A stretch of 64,000 nucleotides of DNA from an uncultured Victivallaceae bacterium (GTDB taxonomy: Bacteria; Verrucomicrobiota; Lentisphaeria; Victivallales; Victivallaceae), in contig CALXOD010000037.1 of NCBI GenBank assembly GCA_944389925.1, positions 124,001 through 188,000 on the forward strand. The letters are read 5' to 3'. The notes beneath the pieces were generated by a model. The model was not told where the DNA came from. It saw only the letters and a list, made by a program, of their open reading frames with translations, and made no database searches. Every line of letters starts with the position of its first letter. The stretch's first letter is position 1. Shown here in pieces: positions 6,522-17,702 of this stretch. Made by a program: the position numbers and the translations under genes.

Positions 6522-8099
6522 TCAGGAGTTTTGACACATTTGAAAGGTTAAACCGAACTTTTCCAGATATTTTCCCAGTCGGTCGGAGTCATTGACCGTG
6601 TGACGTCGTCTTCTTGAGACGGCAAAGAGTTTTTTGCCCGCTTCGGCACGGCTGGGACTGGTTCGACAGACTTCCACAACCCGGGCAAGTTGGCAGAGAT
6701 CAAATTCGTCAAACCGGGATTGATAATCATTGCCAAGAAGTTTTCTTAATATTTCATCGTTTGTTGCACTTTGGGGCGTTTTTCTCTGGCGTATAATCTC
6801 ATTTTTTACAACTGTTTCGTCAATTCGTCCGCCACTGGATAGCGTTGCCATACGCGTGATCATGGCGTTCAAATCCCGGAAGTTGCCCCGCCATGCCGTC
6901 GCCGGATCAAGGGCAAAACGCATGAATTCTGCTTTCGCCTCTTTGTTGAAGGTGATGTGTTTGCCACTTTTTTCCGCAAAACATTTCAATTCATATTCCA
7001 GGTTGGGTTCAATATCCTCCCGGCGTTCGGCAAGTCCCGGCAGTTGAAAGTGCCAGAGATTGATCCGGGCAAGCAGATCAGAACGGAAATGTCCGTCATT
7101 TACGGCACTTTCCAAATCGCGATTGGTGCCGCAGATAAGTTCAAAGCTGCTTTCGCTTTCCGTATCGGCCCCAAGAGGGAAAAAATTTTTTTCTTCGACG
7201 GCATGCAGCAACATGGCTTGTTCATCCAGACCAAGCTCTCCGATTTCATCTAGGAACAAGATGCCGCCGTCGGCCTTTTTGAGTAAGCCCGGACGGTCAG
7301 CTGTCGCCCCGGTAAATGCCCCTTTTTTATGTCCGAAAAGGACACTCATGGCCTGATCTCCCCGGAGGGTGGCGCAGTTGATGCTGACAAATTCCCCCTT
7401 GATTTGATGATTGAGTTTTTTGAGCTCATAAATCCTTTTTGCAAGCCGGGATTTGCCTGCGCCGGTCGGCCCGGAGAGGAGAATCGGTTCCGCCGAACGG
7501 ATCGCCACCCGTTCGATGGTTTCAATCAGTTCGTTGAATTGTTGATTTTTAGTGGCGATGCCGGATTTCAGAAAATCAAGGTCGCTTTCCCGCTCCATGG
7601 CAAAACGCTTGGCAAGCATGTCATAACGCGAGAGATCAAGGTCAATGATGTTGTACCCCCCCTCCGGGCCTGTTCCGGGGTGAGTTTGAATAAGTTTTCC
7701 CGGTAAATGGTGCGATTCGTTCAGTAGAAACAGGCAGATTTGTGCTACGTGCGAACCGGTGGTTATATGGATATAGTAATTGTCTTCTTCGCTGGAGAAA
7801 TCATGATTGCGACTGTATTCGTAAAGCTTGCCGTAAACTTCTTCAAAGTCCCACGGGTCGTCCATGGCGATCACCTCCGGGATAACTTCGGTACCGGGAG
7901 AACACTGCTGAATATCTTCAACGACTCGCTTTTTTAAATCCTCAAATCTGGGTTGGTAGATCAGATGATAGCGGTCAAAATGCAAATCATGCTGCATGGC
8001 GAGAGCCACTGAGGGGCGCCAGGCATTCCAGCGGGAGAGACCACGCGTTCTGCCGTTGTTGTCCAGGGTTGAACCCAAAAGCGAAATCAGGATGTTCAT
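6522..8099 (-). CDS. rtcR: RtcR, sigma-54-dependent activator of RNA repair genes
   Basis: 525 residues. The N-terminal part (about 1-185, MNILISLLGST...) is the CARF-like sensory domain of RtcR, which in E. coli responds to RNA ends. The central AAA+ domain has Walker A GPTGAGKS (210-217), the sigma-54 contact loop GAFTGA (260-265) and Walker B ILFLDEIG (280-287). The C-terminal region carries a helix-turn-helix-like segment (ARVVEVCRTSPSRAEAGKKL). GAFTGA means it opens sigma-54 holoenzyme promoters. It is divergent from rtcB, whose upstream region holds a matching sigma-54 promoter, so the control circuit is clear from sequence. Confidence 0.95.
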   Translation of the reverse strand: MNILISLLGSTLDNNGRTRGLSRWNAWRPSVALAMQHDLHFDRYHLIYQPRFEDLKKRVVEDIQQCSPGTEVIPEVIAMDDPWDFEEVYGKLYEYSRNHDFSSEEDNYYIHITTGSHVAQICLFLLNESHHLPGKLIQTHPGTGPEGGYNIIDLDLSRYDMLAKRFAMERESDLDFLKSGIATKNQQFNELIETIERVAIRSAEPILLSGPTGAGKSRLAKRIYELKKLNHQIKGEFVSINCATLRGDQAMSVLFGHKKGAFTGATADRPGLLKKADGGILFLDEIGELGLDEQAMLLHAVEEKNFFPLGADTESESSFELICGTNRDLESAVNDGHFRSDLLARINLWHFQLPGLAERREDIEPNLEYELKCFAEKSGKHITFNKEAKAEFMRFALDPATAWRGNFRDLNAMITRMATLSSGGRIDETVVKNEIIRQRKTPQSATNDEILRKLLGNDYQSRFDEFDLCQLARVVEVCRTSPSRAEAGKKLFAVSRRRRHTVNDSDRLGKYLEKFGLTFQMCQNS

Positions 8100-8100
8100 A

Positions 8101-8226
8101 ATATAAAATTTTATATATCAATATAGTATTATATATTTTTTTACTAATAGTCCAAGAGGAAGGAATATGCAAGCCCTACATGTATGAAGTTTTTTTTGAG
8201 CTTCAAAAAAACAGTTTTTCGAAAAA
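8101..8226. promoter_or_regulatory. AT-rich palindromes between rtcR and rtcB, candidate RtcR sites
   Basis: Three symmetric elements lie in this intergenic stretch: a perfect palindrome ATATAAAATTTTATAT (8101-8116) touching the rtcR start, an inverted repeat TTTTTTTGA/TCAAAAAAA with a 3-base spacer (8191-8211), and the palindrome TTTTTCGAAAAA (8215-8226). The last two sit 20-56 bases upstream of the sigma-54 promoter. Activator binding is inferred. Confidence 0.4.
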
Positions 8227-8245
8227 TTCTTTGTTTTTTGTGAAT

Positions 8246-8262
8246 CTGGCATGGCTTTTGCT
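8246..8262 (+). promoter_or_regulatory. Sigma-54 (RpoN) promoter of rtcB
   Basis: TGGCAT-N5-TTGCT, with GG at 8248-8249 and GC at 8260-8261, exactly 10 bases apart, matches the -24/-12 consensus at all key positions. Transcription should begin near 8273, about 47 bases before the rtcB ATG. Confidence 0.9.
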
Positions 8263-8319
8263 AATCCGTGTGACAGACAATAAGATTCTGCATGAAAAAA
8301 TGAAAAAAAGGATTGAAAA

Positions 8320-9519
8320 ATGGAATTTATCAAAGGAGAAGGACTTCCCATTCCCATCAAAAGCTGGTGTCGGGGTGTGGAAGATACCGCAATGGTACAG
8401 GCCGAAAATCTTGCCCGTCATCCGGCCTTGCGTCATCATGTGGCGCTGATGCCCGATTGCCACTGTGGGATCGGGATGCCCATCGGAGGGGTGATCGCCG
8501 CAAAAGATGCTGTTATTCCTGCGGCGGTTGGCGTGGACATCGGATGCGGAATGATTGCTGTGGAAACTGACATCCCCGCAGAAAGACTCGAAGATATGCG
8601 TTGTCTGCGTGCCATTCACAGCCGGATAAAAGCGCTTATCCCGGCGGGGGAGGGGAAAATGCACCAGAATCCGCAAGAGTGGACGGGATTTGAAGAATAT
8701 CTGGATACCAAAGGAGTTGATCCCCAGTTTATTACCAGACTTGACCGGCATAATCTCGGGACTCTCGGCGGGGGAAACCACTTTATTGAAATCCAGAAAA
8801 GTACTTCCGGATTTGTCTGGATGATGATTCACTCCGGAAGCCGCAACCTGGGAAAGCGCGTGGAAGAGGTGTATCAGGAAAAGGCGATGCAGCTTTGTGA
8901 ACGCTTTTATGCGCCTTTGCCATGCCGGGATCTGGCATTTTTTCCCATTCAATGCGAAGATGGGCATAACTATTTTAGAGATATGAATTTTGCATTGAAA
9001 TACGCCTTTGAGAACCGTCAGCGAATGATGGCAAAGTGTAAAGCGGCAATGGCCGAGTTCGTGCCCGAAGCCCACTATATTCGGGAAGTGAATATCCATC
9101 ACAACTACGCGGCTTTTGAAGAACACTTCGGAGAAATTTTGTGTGTTCATCGTAAGGGGGCGACCCGTGCCAGACTTGACGAAATCGGCATCATTCCCGG
9201 CTCCATGGGGACGGCAAGCTACATTGTTCGAGGCCTGGGGAATCCGGAAAGTTTTATGAGCTGTTCTCACGGCGCCGGCCGATGCATGAGCCGTACGGCC
9301 GCCTGTCGTACTTTGACTGCCGCCGAGTGCGACGAAGCGATGAAAGGGATTGTTTATGATCGCTGGCATCCCGTGACACGTTATGGTAAAGGGAAGCAGG
9401 TACTGGATCTCTCCGAGGCACCGCAGGCCTATAAGGATATTGACGCGGTCCTTGCCGCCGAACGTGACCTTGTGGAAATTCAAGTTCGTCTGACGCCGCT
9501 GGCGGTGATCAAGGGATAA
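8320..9519 (+). CDS. rtcB: RNA-splicing ligase RtcB
   Basis: GTP- and Mn-dependent ligase that joins RNA 2',3'-cyclic phosphate or 3'-phosphate ends to 5'-OH ends. 399 residues, close to E. coli RtcB (408). Metal-site residues appear in GVDIGCGM (Cys76) and GGGNHFIE (His154). The guanylylated histidine is His317 in SCSHGAGRCMSR. AAAAGG precedes the ATG. It is driven by the sigma-54 promoter at 8246 and controlled by the divergent RtcR. The cyclase gene rtcA, often in the operon, is absent from this window; an EVE/PUA-like gene follows instead. Confidence 0.97.
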   Translation: MEFIKGEGLPIPIKSWCRGVEDTAMVQAENLARHPALRHHVALMPDCHCGIGMPIGGVIAAKDAVIPAAVGVDIGCGMIAVETDIPAERLEDMRCLRAIHSRIKALIPAGEGKMHQNPQEWTGFEEYLDTKGVDPQFITRLDRHNLGTLGGGNHFIEIQKSTSGFVWMMIHSGSRNLGKRVEEVYQEKAMQLCERFYAPLPCRDLAFFPIQCEDGHNYFRDMNFALKYAFENRQRMMAKCKAAMAEFVPEAHYIREVNIHHNYAAFEEHFGEILCVHRKGATRARLDEIGIIPGSMGTASYIVRGLGNPESFMSCSHGAGRCMSRTAACRTLTAAECDEAMKGIVYDRWHPVTRYGKGKQVLDLSEAPQAYKDIDAVLAAERDLVEIQVRLTPLAVIKG

Positions 9520-9556
9520 AACAGTCTGGATGGGGAACTATGGAGGCGGAGTTTTG

Positions 9557-10105
9557 ATGAAAAAGAAGTGTGTAATTCTCAAATGGAATCCGGCGGTCTC
9601 TTCCTGTAACATGAGGTGGTTTCTGGATCGTATCTTATGGAATGAAAATGAATTCGATTGGAGTATTTATGACTATAGGAAAGTGCGAGTCGGAGATCCA
9701 TTTTTCATGCTCAAAGTCGGTGTCGGTACTTGCGGCATTGTGGCCGCAGGAGAACTCACCAGTGATCCCGAGCCAGGAGAAGACTGGAGCGGCCGGGGGC
9801 GCAGGGTGTATTATGCCGATTGCACGTGTAAACTGATGGTCAATCCTGAAGTTCTGCCTATCCTTGAATGCGGGGAGTTGGAAGGCCATATCCGCGGTTT
9901 CGATTGGCATGGCGGACACTCGGGAAGCGTGCTGACTGACGGGCAGGCTGAGGTGCTGATCCAAATTTTCCGCCGGTATCTGCAGGATTGTGCAGCCGTT
10001 TTTTTCGAACGGCTGGAATGGATAGAAAAACGTGGTATGGACAATGACCAGATCTATATAGACCAAAAATTTCTCAAAGAGTTTGCCATTCCCTCCGGTT
10101 TCTGA
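9557..10105 (+). CDS. EVE/PUA-like domain protein in the rtcB operon
   Basis: 182 residues from MKKKCVILKWN, with GGAGGCGGAG just before the ATG; a start nine codons earlier is less likely. The pattern VGDPFFMLKVG...GIVAAGELTSDP, then DWSGRGRRVYYADC and a GHSGSVLT...QAEVL tail resembles EVE/PUA-like proteins. That fold reads modified bases in RNA or DNA. The family call rests on motif memory and is moderate. It is 37 bases downstream of rtcB on the same strand with no terminator between, so it is probably co-induced with rtcB. A link to RNA-damage or RNA-modification sensing is inferred. Confidence 0.6.
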   Translation: MKKKCVILKWNPAVSSCNMRWFLDRILWNENEFDWSIYDYRKVRVGDPFFMLKVGVGTCGIVAAGELTSDPEPGEDWSGRGRRVYYADCTCKLMVNPEVLPILECGELEGHIRGFDWHGGHSGSVLTDGQAEVLIQIFRRYLQDCAAVFFERLEWIEKRGMDNDQIYIDQKFLKEFAIPSGF

Positions 10106-10404: not shown

Positions 10405-12297
10405 GTGTCTATTTCATGGATGGACGGTGTGGCTTGGGGCATTTGGGGAATGGGAGCGTTTGTCGCGTTTCTGTTTTCCCGCAGCTCTTCAATTGCCACA
10501 GGGACGGGCTGCGTGGCGGTTTGTGCCGGTGCGCTGGCCGCATTGGCGGGGTGGGGAGCCCGACTCACGTTCCCCCCTTGTGAAGTTGCGGGATTCTTTC
10601 AGTTGCCGATCCTGGTGCTGGCTGTTGCCGGCGCGATTCATTCACTCGGCTATCTGAAAGGACATGGGGAAAAACGCGCCGGGACGTACTGGGGATTTTA
10701 TAACATTACCGTCGCGGCGATGTACGGTGTAACCCTGGCTGGATCACCGTTTCAATTTCTGGTGCTCTGGGAACTCATGGGGCTGGCGAGTTTTGCCCTG
10801 GTCGCCTTTGAACGGGAGTCGAAGGAGGTTATGCGTGCGGCGTGGATTTACATCGTTGCGTGTCATGCCGGTGCGGCGTTTCTCATCGCCATGTTTTTCT
10901 TCGGGGGAACGCCGACTGCGGTATTTGTTCTCGGGGTGATCGGCTTCGGGCTGAAAATCGGCTTTCCGCTCCTGCATGTATGGTTGCCGGAAGCACATCC
11001 CGCCGCACCGGCACCGGTTTCCGCTTTGATGTCCGGTGCGATGATTCAGCTTGGATTTTACGGGCTGCTCACCTACTGTACCTGGTCGCTTTCGGAATAT
11101 GCCCTCTATGGCTGGACTTTGCTGGGGCTGGGGGTAATCGGTACGTTCGGCGGCATGTTGTTTGCCCTGGGACAGACGAACTTGAAGAAATTGCTGGCCT
11201 ATTCCAGTATTGAAAATATGGGGGTGATGGCAATCGGTTTCGGGTTTGGATTTCTCGGCAGTGCCTCCGGGAATGCCGGTATGTCGCTGTTCGGTTTTGC
11301 CGGGGCGTTTCTGCATCTGCTGATTCATGCGTTGCTCAAGGGGGGACTCTTTCTCGGAGCCGGTTCCATTCTCCGGGCGGAGGGGACGCTCGAAATGGAT
11401 CGGATGGGAGGTCTGTTGAAACGAGCCCCCTTTACCGGATGGGTATTTGCGATGAATGCCGCCGGTTTGAGCGGACTGCCACCGTTTGCCGGATTTCTGA
11501 GTGAATTTCTGATTTATCTTGCGGCACTGGCGGGGTTGACGGCTCCTGGACATTACGGTGTGTTTGCCATGTCGCTGGCGGTGCTGATCGTGCTGGCCCT
11601 GACCGGTGGACTTGCGGCGAGTGCGTATGTCAAGGCGGTGGGGGCGGTATTTCTCGGAGAACCGCGGTCACCGGAGGCTGCCGAGGCGCATGAGGTGACG
11701 GCTTCCATGAAGTGGGTGCCGGGGGCACTGCTGATTTTGAGTGCACTGCTGACGGCAGGAGCGTCCTGGGTGATCGAGTATGGTTTTCCGGCGTATTGCG
11801 GAAATACGGCAGGCAGAGAAATGGCGGTATGTATTGCGGCATTGCGGTATGTGGGAGTATTTTCCGGGCTGCTGATTCTGCTGGCTGCGATCGGGTTGGT
11901 TTGGCGGTTCCGGCTGGTGCCGCGAAGCCGTCGCGGCCGGGTGGCTCCCACCTGGGACTGCGGGTATCGCAATCCCTCGGCGCGGATGGAATATACGGGG
12001 ACGGCATTTACGCAACCGCTCACGGATTTCTTTGCCGGCGTTTTGCGGCCACGGGTTGCGGAGGAAAAGCCGGAAGGGGATTTTCCCCGCAAGAGTTCTT
12101 TCGAGGAGTGGATAGAAGACGGCGGGGTGCGTTTCCTCTGGCAGCCGGTATTCCGTGCTCTGGCGTACCTGGCACATAGAATCCACGTGCTGCAGTCCGG
12201 ATATCTGCATTTATACATTCTGGCGATGGTTCTTACTTTGCTGGCAATGTTGCTGTGGGCGTTCCTGTTTTCCGCAGGGACGGAAGGAGGTTTTTGA
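10405..12297 (+). CDS. HyfB/HycC-like proton-pumping antiporter subunit of an Ehr-type complex
   Basis: 630 residues, GTG start preceded by AAGGTG. A polytopic membrane protein of the Mrp-antiporter/NuoL-NuoM family. Key charges of the ion path are visible: Glu in VLWELMGLASF, Lys in GFGLKIGFPLLHVWLPEAH, and Lys in NLKKLLAYSSIENMG and HALLKGGLFLGAG. The long C-terminal extension after the antiporter core is typical of HyfB/HycC. It is the first gene of a six-gene operon running to 17633. It would form part of the membrane arm that moves H+ or Na+. Ion specificity cannot be read from the sequence. Confidence 0.9.
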   Translation: MSISWMDGVAWGIWGMGAFVAFLFSRSSSIATGTGCVAVCAGALAALAGWGARLTFPPCEVAGFFQLPILVLAVAGAIHSLGYLKGHGEKRAGTYWGFYNITVAAMYGVTLAGSPFQFLVLWELMGLASFALVAFERESKEVMRAAWIYIVACHAGAAFLIAMFFFGGTPTAVFVLGVIGFGLKIGFPLLHVWLPEAHPAAPAPVSALMSGAMIQLGFYGLLTYCTWSLSEYALYGWTLLGLGVIGTFGGMLFALGQTNLKKLLAYSSIENMGVMAIGFGFGFLGSASGNAGMSLFGFAGAFLHLLIHALLKGGLFLGAGSILRAEGTLEMDRMGGLLKRAPFTGWVFAMNAAGLSGLPPFAGFLSEFLIYLAALAGLTAPGHYGVFAMSLAVLIVLALTGGLAASAYVKAVGAVFLGEPRSPEAAEAHEVTASMKWVPGALLILSALLTAGASWVIEYGFPAYCGNTAGREMAVCIAALRYVGVFSGLLILLAAIGLVWRFRLVPRSRRGRVAPTWDCGYRNPSARMEYTGTAFTQPLTDFFAGVLRPRVAEEKPEGDFPRKSSFEEWIEDGGVRFLWQPVFRALAYLAHRIHVLQSGYLHLYILAMVLTLLAMLLWAFLFSAGTEGGF

Positions 12298-12300
12298 ACT

Positions 12301-13239
12301 ATGGCGAATCCTACTGTGATCTGGCTGAGTTCCTTTCTGTTGTCGCTGATTCTAGCGCCGCTGCTGCCCGGAATCGTAAATAAAGTCAAGGCTTTTTTTG
12401 CCGGGCGGCGTGGTCCGAATCTTTTTCAGCTCTATTTCGATCTGGCCAAACTCCTTCGCAAGGAAGGGGTATTCAGTGCGACGGCGGGAGGATTTCTGCA
12501 AGTGGCGCCACCGGTGTCACTCGGATGTCTGTTGCTGGCTGCGCTGCTGCTGCCGCATGGGCTGGTGCGTTCTCCGCTGGGGTTCGGGGGAGATGCGGTG
12601 CTGTTCTTCTATCTGTTGGGAATGGCCCGTTTCATAACGGTGCTGGGAGCGCTGGACACCGGATCAAGTTTTGAAGGGATGGGCGCTTCACGTGAAATGC
12701 AGTTTTCGGCGTTGGCCGAAGGGGCAATTTTCGGAGTGATTGGTTTTATCGCGGTATTTACCGGGCGCGCCGGATTTACGATGCTTCCCGCGGACGGGGG
12801 CGGAGAATGGTGGAGCGTTCATGCGGTGTCGCTCCTGCTGGCTGCGGCGGCATTCTTCGTCGTGCTTATGGCTGAAAATTGCCGCGTTCCCTTTGATGAT
12901 CCGGAAACGCATCTGGAGCTTACCATGATTCACGAAGCCATGATTCTGGATTACGGCGGGCCTGATCTGGCCCTGATTCTTTACGGGGCTTCGCTCAAAT
13001 TGTGGATGTATGCCATGGTGTTGATGATGCTGGTGCTGCCCTGGAGTATCTGCGGCACATGGCTGGGGATGGGGTGCACCCTGGGCGGAGTGCTTCTGAC
13101 CGCCGTTGTGGTCGGCGCCGTGGAATCAAGCATGGCTCGTTACCGTTTTCTCAAAGTACCGCGAATGCTGGTTGGTGCGTTGGCGGTGGCATTGCTGGGG
13201 ATCTTTTTCCGGCTGGTTTTCGAGGGAGGCATCCAATGA
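12301..13239 (+). CDS. HyfC/HycD-like (NuoH-type) membrane subunit
   Basis: 312 residues with about eight membrane segments. It belongs to the NuoH/HycD/EchB family that links the membrane arm to the peripheral redox arm. The family loop is clear: NCRVPFDDPETHLELTMIH followed by EAMILDYGGPDLALI, with the conserved acidic residues. The early RRGPNLFQLYFDLAKLLRKE is also diagnostic. GGAGG lies before the ATG. It starts 3 bases after the previous stop and its own stop overlaps the next ATG (ATGA). Confidence 0.93.
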   Translation: MANPTVIWLSSFLLSLILAPLLPGIVNKVKAFFAGRRGPNLFQLYFDLAKLLRKEGVFSATAGGFLQVAPPVSLGCLLLAALLLPHGLVRSPLGFGGDAVLFFYLLGMARFITVLGALDTGSSFEGMGASREMQFSALAEGAIFGVIGFIAVFTGRAGFTMLPADGGGEWWSVHAVSLLLAAAAFFVVLMAENCRVPFDDPETHLELTMIHEAMILDYGGPDLALILYGASLKLWMYAMVLMMLVLPWSICGTWLGMGCTLGGVLLTAVVVGAVESSMARYRFLKVPRMLVGALAVALLGIFFRLVFEGGIQ

Positions 13240-13943
13240 CGGCATGGTGTGAAGCGGTTCTTGCGGCATTTTTGTTGACGGATATCATGCTGGCGGCATC
13301 GAGCCGTCTGCTGCATTGTATCCGGATTGTGGCAGCGCAGGGACTCCTGCTGGGGATTCTGCCGCTGGTGATTCGTTCCTGGAGCGAAGTGCATCCTGAC
13401 CAGATATGGATTTCTCTGGTGAACATCGGCATCAAGGGCGTGGCGTTGCCGCTTCTCTTGATCCTGGCGATGAAACAGGCCAACGTCCGGCGGGAATTGG
13501 AGCCGTTTGTCGGTTATTCGTTGTCCGTGGTGGCGGTGCTGGGGCTGACGGGGATCTCTTTCTGGGTGGGGGCGCAGCTGCCGCCGCCGGTGGAGGCGGG
13601 AGTGAGGCTTGCCATGCCGGTGGCTTTTTCCACAATGCTGACGGGACTTTTCATGGTCATGGCGCGGCGCAAGGCCATTACGCAGGCGATTGGGTTTCTG
13701 ATCTTTGAAAACGGCATTACGCTGTTCGGGACGGGATTGATGATTGAATACGGGCTGGTGGTGGAACTGGGAATTCTGCTGGATGTTTTTGTGCTGGTGT
13801 TTGTCATGGGCATCGCCCTGTTCCAGATCAACCAGGAGTTTGAGCATATCGATGCTGATAAACTGAACCGTCTCGGCGATTGGTCCGCGCCGGACGAAGA
13901 AGATGCCGAAGCGCTCCCGACTCCGGCAGAGGAGGGCAGATGA
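13236..13943 (+). CDS. HyfE-like membrane subunit
   Basis: 235 residues from MTAWCEAVLAAF; E. coli HyfE is about 216. Several membrane segments (AAFLLTDIMLAAS, LPLLLILAMK, VGYSLSVVAVLGLTG, FSTMLTGLFMVMARR) and a NuoK-like C-terminal part, ending in an acidic soluble tail. The in-frame extension upstream of 13236 lies inside the preceding gene and is rejected. The ATGA overlap shows translational coupling. HyfE-type subunits occur in Hyf and Ehr complexes but not in the Hyc formate hydrogenlyase, which helps place this operon. Confidence 0.88.
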   Translation: MTAWCEAVLAAFLLTDIMLAASSRLLHCIRIVAAQGLLLGILPLVIRSWSEVHPDQIWISLVNIGIKGVALPLLLILAMKQANVRRELEPFVGYSLSVVAVLGLTGISFWVGAQLPPPVEAGVRLAMPVAFSTMLTGLFMVMARRKAITQAIGFLIFENGITLFGTGLMIEYGLVVELGILLDVFVLVFVMGIALFQINQEFEHIDADKLNRLGDWSAPDEEDAEALPTPAEEGR

Positions 13944-15367
13944 TGGTTTTGATTCCGATACTTCTGCCGGCACTGATGGCGCCGGTGATCTGGTTTGCGG
14001 GGAGACGCAGTTCTCTTGCCGCCCGGGTGCTGCTGCTGGTAACGGCATTGCTCCATGCCGGCGGGACAATCGCGCTTTATCGGTGGTGCGATGCGCCGAT
14101 GGAGGGCGAATATCTTGGCGTGGATCCGTTGGGGTTGTGGGTGGTTTCGATTACTTCTCTGCTGTTTTTGTGCGTATCGCTGCATGCCTTTTTCTGGTTG
14201 CCGATGGCGCGGAAATATGAAGGCGGTGCCCATGGACGTTCGCTGATGAGTGAACATCTTTTCTGCTCGATACTGGTCTGCTTTCTGAGTACGATGACAC
14301 TGGTGGCGCTCTCCCGTAACTTCGGGCTGCTCTGGGTGGCGGTTGAGGCCACGACGCTGGCCAGTGCGCCGCTGATCTGCTTTCATCGTTCCGCGGGGTC
14401 GCTTGAGGCGATGTGGAAATATTTGCTGATCTGTTCCGTCGGAATCGGTCTGGCGCTGTTTGGAACATTAATGCTCGGCGTCGCGATCCAGCCTCCGGTG
14501 GGCGCGGAGCCGGGATTGGGGTTTACGGTGCTGGGGGCAGCATGCAATACGGTCAATCCGGCGTGGTTCAAGGCTGCTTTCATTTTCTGCTTTGCCGGAT
14601 ACGGACTGAAAATGGGACTTGCGCCGTTTCATACCTGGCTGCCGGATGCCCACAGCGAGGCGCCGTCGATGGTGTCGGTGCTGCTTTCCGGGGCGCTGTT
14701 GAACTGTTCGTTTCTGGGAATTGTCCGGGTGCTCGGGGTGGCTCCCGCATCGCTGCGGAGTTTCTGCAACGGCTATCTGGTGGCGTTTGGGGTTTTGTCG
14801 CTGGTAATTGCGGCATTTTTCATCATCCGCCAGAGTGACTACAAGCGGATGCTCGCTTATTCGAGTGTCGAACACATGGGGTTGCTCGCCATTTTCTTCG
14901 GGCTGGACGAGGAAGTGACCGGGCTCATTCACATGGGAGTACATTCCCTGACCAAAATGATGCTGTTTCTGATTGCCGGCAACATTCTCATGGCGTGCGG
15001 GACGCGCAGTGTGGAAAAAGTCCGGGGGCTTTTTGAACGCATGCCGCGGACTGCCTGGCTGTGGGCGGCAGGCATGTTTCTGATCTGCGGGACGCCGCCG
15101 TCTCCTTTGTTTGTGACGGAACTGTTATTGGTGCAGCGGGCCGGATGGTGGCTGGGAGGGACGATTCTGCTGCTGCTTTTTGCTGTATTCTGCGGGATGT
15201 CGATGATCGTTTTCCGGATGGTCGGCGGCAAGGCCGCTCCGGAGTGTGCCGTGTCCCGTGACGCGGAGCGGGCGGCTGAAAAACTTGCGTGGCTTCCCGG
15301 CGTGCTCGCGGTGCTGCTGTTGGGCTGGGGGAGTTTGCTCATCTGGAATTTCATGGGGAGATTGTAA
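13940..15367 (+). CDS. HyfF-like antiporter subunit
   Basis: 475 residues from MMVLIPILLPAL. It is a second Mrp/NuoM-type antiporter protein in the operon. The core is visible: LLWVAVEATTLASAPLICF (Glu of the first half), GYGLKMGLAPFHTWLPDAH (Lys), SDYKRMLAYSSVEHMG (Lys) and HSLTKMMLFLIAGN (Lys). The start overlaps the previous stop (ATGATGG). Together with the 10405 gene it gives two antiporter-like modules, as in Hyf and Ehr complexes. Confidence 0.92.
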   Translation: MMVLIPILLPALMAPVIWFAGRRSSLAARVLLLVTALLHAGGTIALYRWCDAPMEGEYLGVDPLGLWVVSITSLLFLCVSLHAFFWLPMARKYEGGAHGRSLMSEHLFCSILVCFLSTMTLVALSRNFGLLWVAVEATTLASAPLICFHRSAGSLEAMWKYLLICSVGIGLALFGTLMLGVAIQPPVGAEPGLGFTVLGAACNTVNPAWFKAAFIFCFAGYGLKMGLAPFHTWLPDAHSEAPSMVSVLLSGALLNCSFLGIVRVLGVAPASLRSFCNGYLVAFGVLSLVIAAFFIIRQSDYKRMLAYSSVEHMGLLAIFFGLDEEVTGLIHMGVHSLTKMMLFLIAGNILMACGTRSVEKVRGLFERMPRTAWLWAAGMFLICGTPPSPLFVTELLLVQRAGWWLGGTILLLLFAVFCGMSMIVFRMVGGKAAPECAVSRDAERAAEKLAWLPGVLAVLLLGWGSLLIWNFMGRL

Positions 15368-15369
15368 CG

Positions 15370-16851
15370 ATGCTGCCGATGAAAATTGGAAACGGTATGG
15401 CGGCGCTCTGGCGTGAGGTGCCGGTGTGCGAAATGGCTGAATTCCGGGCCTGGCTTCGGGAGATTTCGGAAACGGAACGGCGTCGGATTGCGGCTTTTTT
15501 TGCGGTACCGGACGACGAGCAGTTCCGCCTGGTTGCGGTGGCGGAGGATGCCGGAGGCTGTGGCTTTGCCCTCTGTTCGGTCCGTGTCTGCCGTGTTTAC
15601 CCTGCGTTGAGCGGAGAAATCGCGGCGCTTCAGAAATTCGAACGATTGATTGCGGAACGTGATGGACTGGTGCCGGAAGGCCATCCCTATCTGCAGCCGG
15701 TGCGCCGTCTTCGGGAAGACGAGGACGGAAGAGGGTTTCTGGCTGAACGGGGAGCGGCGGTACATGATGTCGCGGTGGGGCCTGTTCATGCGGGGGTGAT
15801 CGAACCTGGTCATTTCCGGTTTGAGTGTGTCGGCGAGAAGGTGCATTCTCTGGAGATTGCTCTCGGGTATCAGCACCGTGGGATTGAGGCCATGCTTGCC
15901 GGAGGGCCGGATGAAAAAACACTGCATCTGATGGAGACGGCCGATGGTTCCAGCTCGATTGCAGTTGCTACGGCGTATGCTCGTCTGATCGAAGCCCTGA
16001 GCGGAATTGCCGTTCCGGCAGAGACCGTGACTCTCCGTGCGATTGCACTTGAACTGGAGCGGATAGCCAATCATGTCGGTGATCTGGGGGCGCTGGCAGG
16101 GGATGTGGCGTTTCTGCCGACGGCTTCGTTTTGCGGACGGATTCGGGGGGAATATTTGAATATGACGGCGGAACTTTGCGGGAACCGTTTCGGACGCAAT
16201 TTCATTCTTCCCGGCGGAACCCGGTTCGGACTGGATGCAGCGCGGGCCGGAAAAATTCTCGACTGGTTGCGGCGGGTCAAGCGGGATCTTGACGGGGCGC
16301 TCAAGCTCTTTTTCGATTCTCCGACGGTACTTGACCGTCTGGAAAATACCGGGCGCGTTTCCCGGGAAACGGCGTTGCATCTTGGCGCGGTCGGGCCGGC
16401 CGCCCGGGCTTCCGGAGTGGCCCGGGATGCACGGTGCGATTTCGGCTGGAGCGAATATGCGCCGTATGCCGCATGTGAATGTGTTACGGAAGAGACCGGA
16501 GATGTTCTGGCGCGGGCCCGGGTGCGTTTGCGGGAGCTGGAGTTTTCGCACCGCTTTCTTGACGCGGCGCTGGCGGAAGCCGTGCGCCGTCCGATCGAGG
16601 CGGTCCGATGTGATTCTGGAATTTTCCCGGCTGCCGATTCCATCGCGGTGAGCGCGGTCGAAGGATGGCGCGGGGAGCATATTCATGTGGCGTTGACCGA
16701 TAGCCGCGGTTATTTCGAGGTGTATCGGATGGTGGATCCCTCGCTGCGCAACTGGGAGATGCTTGGCATGGCGCTGCGTGGAGAAGAGATTTCCAATTTT
16801 CCGATTTGTAATAAGAGCTTTAATCTGTCCTATTGTGGACATGATCTGTGA
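15370..16851 (+). CDS. Large-subunit homologue (HyfG/HycE/NuoD-like) lacking NiFe ligands
   Basis: 493 residues. An N-terminal NuoC-like part (about 1-125, HPYLQPVRRL near its end) is fused to a NuoD/hydrogenase-large-like part (from about 130: GPVHAGVIEPGHFRF, ALGYQHRGIE, ELERIANHVGDLG). In NiFe hydrogenases four cysteines hold the metal. Here the N-terminal motif reads ETADGSSSIA (189-198) and the C-terminal motif reads DPSLRNW (456-462), so all four are missing. The tail NFPICNKSFNLSYCGHDL resembles Ehr large subunits as I remember them. It is therefore probably not a hydrogenase but a quinone- or other-substrate site, as in complex I. The substrate is unknown. Confidence 0.9.
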   Translation: MLPMKIGNGMAALWREVPVCEMAEFRAWLREISETERRRIAAFFAVPDDEQFRLVAVAEDAGGCGFALCSVRVCRVYPALSGEIAALQKFERLIAERDGLVPEGHPYLQPVRRLREDEDGRGFLAERGAAVHDVAVGPVHAGVIEPGHFRFECVGEKVHSLEIALGYQHRGIEAMLAGGPDEKTLHLMETADGSSSIAVATAYARLIEALSGIAVPAETVTLRAIALELERIANHVGDLGALAGDVAFLPTASFCGRIRGEYLNMTAELCGNRFGRNFILPGGTRFGLDAARAGKILDWLRRVKRDLDGALKLFFDSPTVLDRLENTGRVSRETALHLGAVGPAARASGVARDARCDFGWSEYAPYAACECVTEETGDVLARARVRLRELEFSHRFLDAALAEAVRRPIEAVRCDSGIFPAADSIAVSAVEGWRGEHIHVALTDSRGYFEVYRMVDPSLRNWEMLGMALRGEEISNFPICNKSFNLSYCGHDL

Positions 16852-16871
16852 CGGGAGGCGGGTGATTCATT

Positions 16872-17633
16872 ATGCTCAAAGCGCTGAAAGGCCGTTTCGA
16901 ACAGGGATTCCGGACCGGGAAATTTCCGGATGCGCCGCCGATGCTTTCCGATCGCTTTCCGGGGAGGCCGGTTCTGGAGGCTGCGCGCTGTACGGGGTGC
17001 GGGGCATGCATGCGTACCGAAGTGTGTCCATCCGGAGCTGTTGCAGGAAAGGACGGCCGACCGGAGATCGACACCGGAAAGTGTATTTTCTGCGGGGCGT
17101 GTGCGGAAATCTGCCCTGAAAAGGCCATCGGTTTTTCGCAGGAATATCGCATGGCGGCGATGACGCGCCGGGCGCTGGTGGTCCGGCCCGGCGAACCATA
17201 TATTCCGGAAAGACCGACCAACCGGGAGTTTCTCCGGTTCTGCGGCCGTTCGCTCAAGATCCGACAGGTGTCGGCGGGAGGATGCGGTGCGTGTGAACTG
17301 GACTTCAATGTACTGGGAACATTGGCGTGGGACATGGGACGGTTCGGCATTCAGATTGTTGCATCTCCTCGACACGCCGACTGTATTCTGGTCACGGGGC
17401 CGGTCAGCCGCAATATGCTTGTTGCTTTGAAAAAGACGTATGACGCGGCACCCCGGCCTGTCTGGGTGATCGCCTCCGGGGCATGCGCGATTTCGGGAGG
17501 TCTTTACGCCGGGAGCCCCGAATGTCTGGGGGGTGTCGAGGAGATTCTTAAGCCGGATCTGTATGTGCCCGGCTGTCCTCCACATCCTGCGACGCTGCTG
17601 GAAGGAATGCTGCGCCTGATGAATCGCCGTTAA
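16872..17633 (+). CDS. Ferredoxin-small subunit fusion (HycF/NuoI plus HycG/NuoB type)
   Basis: 253 residues. The N-terminal third (about 35-95) is a two-cluster ferredoxin: CTGCGACMRTEVCP and CIFCGACAEICP. The first group has five residues before its last Cys instead of the usual three. The C-terminal part (about 125-253) is a NuoB/hydrogenase-small domain with cluster ligands in GGCGACELD, GACAISGGLYAG and VPGCPPHP. The clusters look complete, so electrons can flow even though the large subunit lacks nickel ligands. GGGAGG precedes the ATG. In Hyc and Hyf these domains are separate proteins. It is the last gene of the operon, followed by a terminator. Confidence 0.92.
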   Translation: MLKALKGRFEQGFRTGKFPDAPPMLSDRFPGRPVLEAARCTGCGACMRTEVCPSGAVAGKDGRPEIDTGKCIFCGACAEICPEKAIGFSQEYRMAAMTRRALVVRPGEPYIPERPTNREFLRFCGRSLKIRQVSAGGCGACELDFNVLGTLAWDMGRFGIQIVASPRHADCILVTGPVSRNMLVALKKTYDAAPRPVWVIASGACAISGGLYAGSPECLGGVEEILKPDLYVPGCPPHPATLLEGMLRLMNRR

Positions 17634-17671: not shown

Positions 17672-17702
17672 AGAGAGGGGGCGGAAGCCGCCGCTCTTTT
17701 TA
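17672..17702 (+). terminator. Terminator of the Ehr-like operon
   Basis: AGAG...GGCGG pairs with CCGCC-GCTCT and is followed by TTTTT (17697-17701), about 40 bases after the last stop codon. Confidence 0.7.

Follow-up and report, generated by a model that had tools for sequence, protein, structure and literature searches.

The DNA analysed here is a stretch of 64,000 nucleotides (the window), part of contig C37 in the genome of an uncultured Victivallaceae bacterium (2.80 Mb, 69 contigs, 97% complete). At positions 10405-17633, the window carries a six-gene operon that, as the evidence below supports, encodes an energy-converting hydrogenase-related (Ehr) complex, in which the nickel ligands of [NiFe] hydrogenases are lost and the iron-sulfur ligands are retained. 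We give slightly better than even odds (about 0.56) to the reading that this is a functional complex of a gut Lentisphaeria-type anaerobe, a ferredoxin-fed ion pump that passes electrons to a small non-quinone acceptor in a remodelled pocket. The operon is a further member of an already described family and as such a routine new copy; its added value lies in the content of the genomes that carry it.

The operon and its family

The six genes lie on the forward strand with intergenic gaps of 3, -4, -4, 2, and 20 nt, and their products resemble, in order, HyfB, HyfC, HyfE, HyfF, HyfG, and, joined in a single protein, HyfH and HyfI. The first gene (10405-12297, GTG start) encodes EhrA, an antiporter-type subunit of 630 aa (PF00361, 1.6e-42). 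Its best NCBIfam match is hydrogenase 4 subunit B (1.1e-123, under the curated cut-off of that model), and in the alignment its pump residues E123, K184, H308/K312, and K410 line up with HyfB. EhrB (12301-13239, 312 aa; PF00146, 2.3e-30) is a membrane anchor of the HyfC/NuoH type with the acidic loop ENCRVPFDDPE, as seen in the alignment to E. coli HyfC. EhrC (13236-13943, 235 aa) aligns to E. coli HyfE and matches the hydrogenase 4 membrane subunit NF008556 (2.4e-18, below the cut-off). EhrD (13940-15367, 475 aa), the second antiporter-type subunit, matches PF00361 (2.5e-46) and hydrogenase 4 subunit F (2.5e-85, below the cut-off), and its pump residues E136, K224, and H335/K339 are conserved. 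The large subunit EhrL (15370-16851, 493 aa; PF00346, 6e-30) combines a NuoC-like N-terminal domain with a large-subunit domain devoid of NiFe ligands. In the small subunit EhrS (16872-17633, 253 aa; PF01058, 3.9e-25, and Fer4 families), a HyfH-like domain with two [4Fe-4S] clusters is fused to a HyfI/NuoB-like domain.

The first-pass annotation of this DNA had recognised two antiporter modules, a NuoH-like, a HyfE-like, a large, and a small subunit. Profile searches agree for all six genes (two Proton_antipo_M, NADHdh, HyfE-like, 49-kDa-like, and NuoB plus 2x[4Fe-4S] matches); what had been missed is the HyfH-HyfI fusion and the NuoC-like domain of EhrL. The Ehr subunit set of antiporter-like, HyfE-like, large, and small subunits is thus complete in the window. 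Compared with hydrogenase 4 and the formate hydrogenlyase of E. coli (HyfA-I, HycB-G), the operon has homologues of HyfB, HyfC, HyfE, HyfF, HyfG, HyfH, and HyfI, the last two fused, but lacks HyfA, HyfD, the NiFe ligands, and the cleavable C-terminal extension. With complex I it shares the large- and small-subunit folds of NuoCD and NuoB, including the NuoC-like N-domain; unlike complex I, it has no NuoEFG, the quinone-binding His and Tyr are replaced, and the proximal CxxC is of the hydrogenase type.

In a large-subunit tree built without MBS/MBX sequences, EhrL of the window groups with 38 other Ehr proteins, those of Geobacter and Geomonas among them, on a branch with 100/99 support, apart from 16 [NiFe] hydrogenases and two Nuo sequences. 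The earlier assignment to an Ehr-type complex is therefore borne out, and EhrL does not fall inside the true NiFe hydrogenases. Nickel-ligand-free Ehr large subunits, also cited in that annotation, have indeed been described (PMC6349859, PMC10284858, PMC7304191), and Ehr of Lentisphaerae already stands in a published tree (PMC6349859). We found the same family in Geobacter, Geomonas, Geothrix, Desulfovibrio, Planctomycetes, Spirochaetes, Elusimicrobia, Riflebacteria, and others.

The Geobacter and Geomonas complexes (ehrABCDLS; GSU0739-0745 in G. sulfurreducens) are close counterparts. The gene order A-B-C-D-L-S is common to the window, G. argillaceus (L077), and Geomonas limicola (L103), and the large subunits are 46-47% identical, belong to the same clade, and share the loss of the nickel site and the CNKSFNLSYCGHDL-type C-terminal motif. 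The Geobacter loci differ in having a second EhrA-like antiporter gene and a regulator with HTH and EIIA domains, neither of which is found in the window.

Some relatives depart from this pattern. Two long-branch sequences (L161:659-2230 and L048:8711-10630) stand near the base of the Ehr clade; in L161 the motifs are changed differently (AGTTAFSH and FGLSVAENDR), and it may represent another nickel-less type. Three loci of the same phylum (L045:1-18760, L046:426-15023, and L044:1-13106) carry two tandem diverged Ehr-like complexes or an adjoining pair of large subunits.

The former nickel site and the residues around it

We compared EhrL residue by residue with HycE, HyfG, NuoCD, and MbhL; a single larger alignment takes in 136 large subunits, 15 true group 4 hydrogenases and 117 Ehr proteins among them. 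All four nickel-binding cysteines are gone, as had been claimed, and no CxxC stands anywhere in EhrL to which they might have shifted; the group 4 motifs RxCGxC and DPCxxC are both absent. ETADGSSS (residues 189-196; 15934-15957, forward strand) takes the place of the first CxxC, in agreement with the first-pass annotation: where HycE reads RVCGICGF, EhrL reads TADGSSSI (190-197), with Asp192 and Ser195 in place of the cysteines. The second site had been misplaced. DPSLRNW (456-462; 16735-16755, forward strand), taken for it earlier, lies upstream and aligns with AATYANW of HycE; it is a conserved Ehr motif in its own right, DPS[FL]xNW in nearly all members. The actual counterpart is the C-terminus of EhrL, CNKSFNLSYCGHDL (480-493; 16807-16848, forward strand), where SLDPCYSCTDR of HycE corresponds to SFNLSYCGHDL. 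Here, Ser487 and Gly490 replace the two cysteines, and a new one, Cys489, stands between them. The HycE precursor loses a C-terminal extension by cleavage during hydrogenase maturation, and in the alignment EhrL ends at the position of this cleavage.

At the four nickel positions, the 15 true group 4 proteins read CCCC, most Ehr A[TS]SG, and EhrL DSSG. As the second motif ends in Ser-Gly in 117 Ehr sequences, the loss of the ligands is a trait of the family and not a sequencing accident. The first motif of the window is peculiar within Ehr. Relatives, Geobacter and Geomonas included, typically have A-G-D-[ST], while EhrL and its nearest relative, L031, have ADGS (D192-G193-S194-S195 in EhrL), so that the aspartate found at position 194 in 115 of the 117 is a serine in EhrL. 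This does not remove the complex from the family, since A-G-D-[ST] is a signature that we drew up from this alignment and no published family criterion, and EhrL agrees with all those that have been published.

The iron-sulfur ligands of EhrS are intact, as stated in the earlier annotation (C40/43/46/52, C71/74/77/81, and C138/141/205/235), each being kept in 93-111 of 114 relatives. In EhrL, the segment VIEPGHF (143-149; 15796-15816, forward strand) retains E145, the counterpart of the proton-relay glutamate E21 of MbhL (PMC7684303); this position is Glu in 117/117 Ehr and 15/15 NiFe proteins and Gly in NuoD. The monomer model of EhrL (pLDDT 85, pTM 0.88, with low confidence at the C-terminus) has as its best Foldseek match HycE of formate hydrogenlyase (7z0s_E, TM 0.86, the NuoC-like domain included), which is also the nearest solved relative by sequence (8.3e-34), and complex I is the next fold.

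The proximal cluster bears on one alternative, a sulfane-sulfur or polysulfide reductase resembling MBS of Pyrococcus furiosus (6U8Y), with the substrate being reduced directly by the proximal [4Fe-4S] cluster, at an iron not ligated by cysteine. MBS is a solved group 4-related complex that, like Ehr, belongs to the complex I superfamily, has neither NiFe nor the quinone residues, and acts on a small molecule; its proximal-cluster loop is three residues shorter than that of MBH, which leaves one iron open (PMC7684303). However, MBS keeps two nickel cysteines, ligates the proximal cluster by three cysteines, and has no counterpart of E21 (PMC7684303), whereas Ehr has no nickel cysteine, four cysteine ligands, and E145. 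As judged from the alignment only, the loop of EhrS is not of the short MBS type: it has hydrogenase length, with GGCGACE against GGCNACE, and both C138 and C141 are conserved. Given this length and the hydrogenase-type CxxC spacing, the MBS mechanism is not predicted for Ehr, and we regard such a reaction as unlikely.

A second alternative is prompted by two cysteines specific to Ehr near the former nickel site, C480 (111/117) and C489 (110/117), the latter lying between the two former nickel-ligand positions. They could form a redox pair beside the proximal cluster, comparable to that of ferredoxin:thioredoxin reductase, which would make the complex a thiol/disulfide reductase. This, too, appears doubtful, as C489 is Ala or Ser in seven Ehr sequences, and the C-terminus is of low confidence in the EhrL model.

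Electron partners and competing reactions

In order to find possible electron partners, we ran family searches, with control genomes, on the genome of the window and 38 relatives; 24 of these 39 genomes carry Ehr. Pyruvate:ferredoxin oxidoreductase (PFOR) and [FeFe] hydrogenases are present in all 39, and an Nqr/Rnf subunit (PF03116) in 36, being of the Rnf type in the genome of the window. Two of the [FeFe] hydrogenases of the latter belong to the NADH-dependent group A6 and have NuoF-like partners. Together, PFOR, Rnf, and NADH-dependent [FeFe] hydrogenases indicate a ferredoxin economy. By family searches, the genome of the window has neither a second NuoD-like subunit nor a [NiFe] hydrogenase (PF00374). 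The first-pass annotation had noted that hyp genes are missing near the operon, and HypD was not found anywhere in this genome.

Under the reading we favour, PFOR would produce reduced ferredoxin, the presumed donor to the two [4Fe-4S] clusters in the HyfH-like domain of EhrS. Electrons would then reach the proximal [4Fe-4S] cluster, which is predicted to face the remodelled former NiFe pocket of EhrL, and there reduce a small acceptor, probably neither protons at a NiFe site, nor a quinone, nor CO2/formate. The protons for this reduction would arrive by the path of the retained Glu145, and the free energy would drive ions through the NuoH-like and the two antiporter-like subunits, the pumping, like the direction of the process as a whole, being a prediction. 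The earlier wording, a redox-driven pump of unknown substrate, is a fair one if pumping is understood in this sense.

Several points weigh against this reading. We infer ferredoxin as the donor by analogy; in about 100 loci, no recurrent neighbouring gene names an acceptor; and the cell may draw on a quinone scavenged from elsewhere or on a carrier that went unrecognised. The absences in the genome of the window are drawn from an assembly of 69 contigs with a completeness of about 97%, and divergent enzymes can escape family searches. Moreover, the Ehr complex of Geobacter has been regarded as simply non-functional (PMC13194489). A wider proposal remains tentative and, taken as a whole, is rather less than probable: Ehr may be a separate branch of the complex I superfamily that reduces a small acceptor at a remodelled, metal-free former NiFe site formed by Gly-Asp-Ser/Thr, Ser-Tyr-Cys-Gly, and Glu145, and gut Lentisphaeria may run it alongside Rnf as an ion pump driven by ferredoxin, independent of quinone and formate dehydrogenase.

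We also considered Ehr as a substitute for Rnf and rejected this, because the three genomes without PF03116 all carry Ehr, but so do 24 of the 39, and chance alone gives p ~0.22 (hand calculation). One of the three (G138, same family) carries, together on contig C57, HypD and a second large subunit, 32% identical; this may be a genuine group 4 NiFe hydrogenase that stands in for Rnf. At another locus (L146:5968-10531), Rnf C, D, and E genes were recognised together with ORFs of the size of G and A; an rsmE-like gene comes next, and no rnfB was recognised in this cluster.

Since EhrL is homologous to NuoD (PF00346) and complex I follows HycE in fold, the complex might be a ferredoxin:quinone oxidoreductase similar to cyanobacterial NDH-1 or headless complex I. 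Yet the quinone residues H38 and Y87 of NuoD (PMC7684303) correspond to I144 and G193 in EhrL, and almost all Ehr proteins likewise have Ile and Gly there. Moreover, UbiA is absent from the genome of the window, exceeds the cut-off in only 6 of the 39 genomes, and is missing by the same measure from 20 of the 24 Ehr carriers, while MqnA/D-type enzymes and cytochrome bd were found in none of the 23 genomes searched for them, that of the window included. A quinone is therefore an improbable acceptor in this lineage. Alternatively, Ehr could be a relic, an electron-dead complex that drifts or acts as a mere ion antiporter; the lost nickel site, the verdict on the Geobacter complex (PMC13194489), and the patchy distribution within the family, with one same-genus genome (86% complete) lacking Ehr, are in line with this. 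However, dN/dS against the L031 operon (large subunit 79% identical) is 0.05-0.14 over five subunits, the NuoH-like gene being left out, which means that the operon is under purifying selection and argues against decay. In addition, conservation across many phyla extends to the iron-sulfur ligands, to E145, R434, and D353/R355, and to the new motif at the C-terminus, and we consider a relic very unlikely.

The least credible alternative in this lineage is the pairing of Ehr with a Mo/W formate dehydrogenase as a formate-driven pump, which was proposed for Margulisbacteria from genome context (PMC6349859) and suggested for Geobacter, where formate raises the abundance of Ehr subunits (PMC7894505), and which would suit the HycE-like fold of EhrL: the molybdopterin oxidoreductase family PF00384 is absent from all 39 genomes, the 24 Ehr carriers among them (the control was positive in 11 of 14 known genomes); the genome of the window, in contrast to that of E. 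coli with its formate hydrogenlyase, has neither formate dehydrogenase nor HypD, and the operon contains no HyfA/HycB-type linker and no NuoEF.

Gene neighbourhoods and implications

An all-against-all comparison of about 100 Ehr loci revealed no recurrent redox partner, and we rejected the neighbourhood as a clue to the substrate, as only regulator and transport genes recur. About 22 loci, from several phyla, have upstream of Ehr a regulator in which an N-terminal HTH_17 domain is fused to a phosphotransferase system (PTS) EIIA-2 domain (for example L081:3269-3979, L065:3228-3944, L067:3204-3923, and L103:1109-1786, with some 18 more), and eight diverged copies occur elsewhere (L058:3339-4049 and L098:988-1710 among them). 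This suggests PTS-linked control of Ehr. In gut Lentisphaeria, an ABC export set precedes the Ehr genes and an SNF Na+ symporter follows them. The window contains neither of these, nor the HTH-EIIA regulator.

Just upstream of the operon, at 6522-9519 of the window, a divergent pair encodes an RtcR-type sigma-54 regulator (reverse strand) and the RNA ligase RtcB (forward strand), an RNA-repair module. It is followed by an ORF of 191 aa (9530-10105) with no Pfam match. At the 3' side of the operon, a pattern match points to a putative intrinsic terminator (17674-17701, forward strand), a hairpin with an 11-pair stem and a T tail.

Ehr complexes are spread over many bacterial phyla, and the genomes that carry them bear on the question of their reaction. 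The Ehr-carrying Lentisphaeria tested here have ferredoxin enzymes and no molybdopterin formate dehydrogenase, and in most of them recognisable quinone synthesis is absent; the genome of the window additionally lacks nickel-hydrogenase maturation. This gene content speaks against formate and quinone, the two partners commonly proposed, and leaves a short list of testable acceptors.

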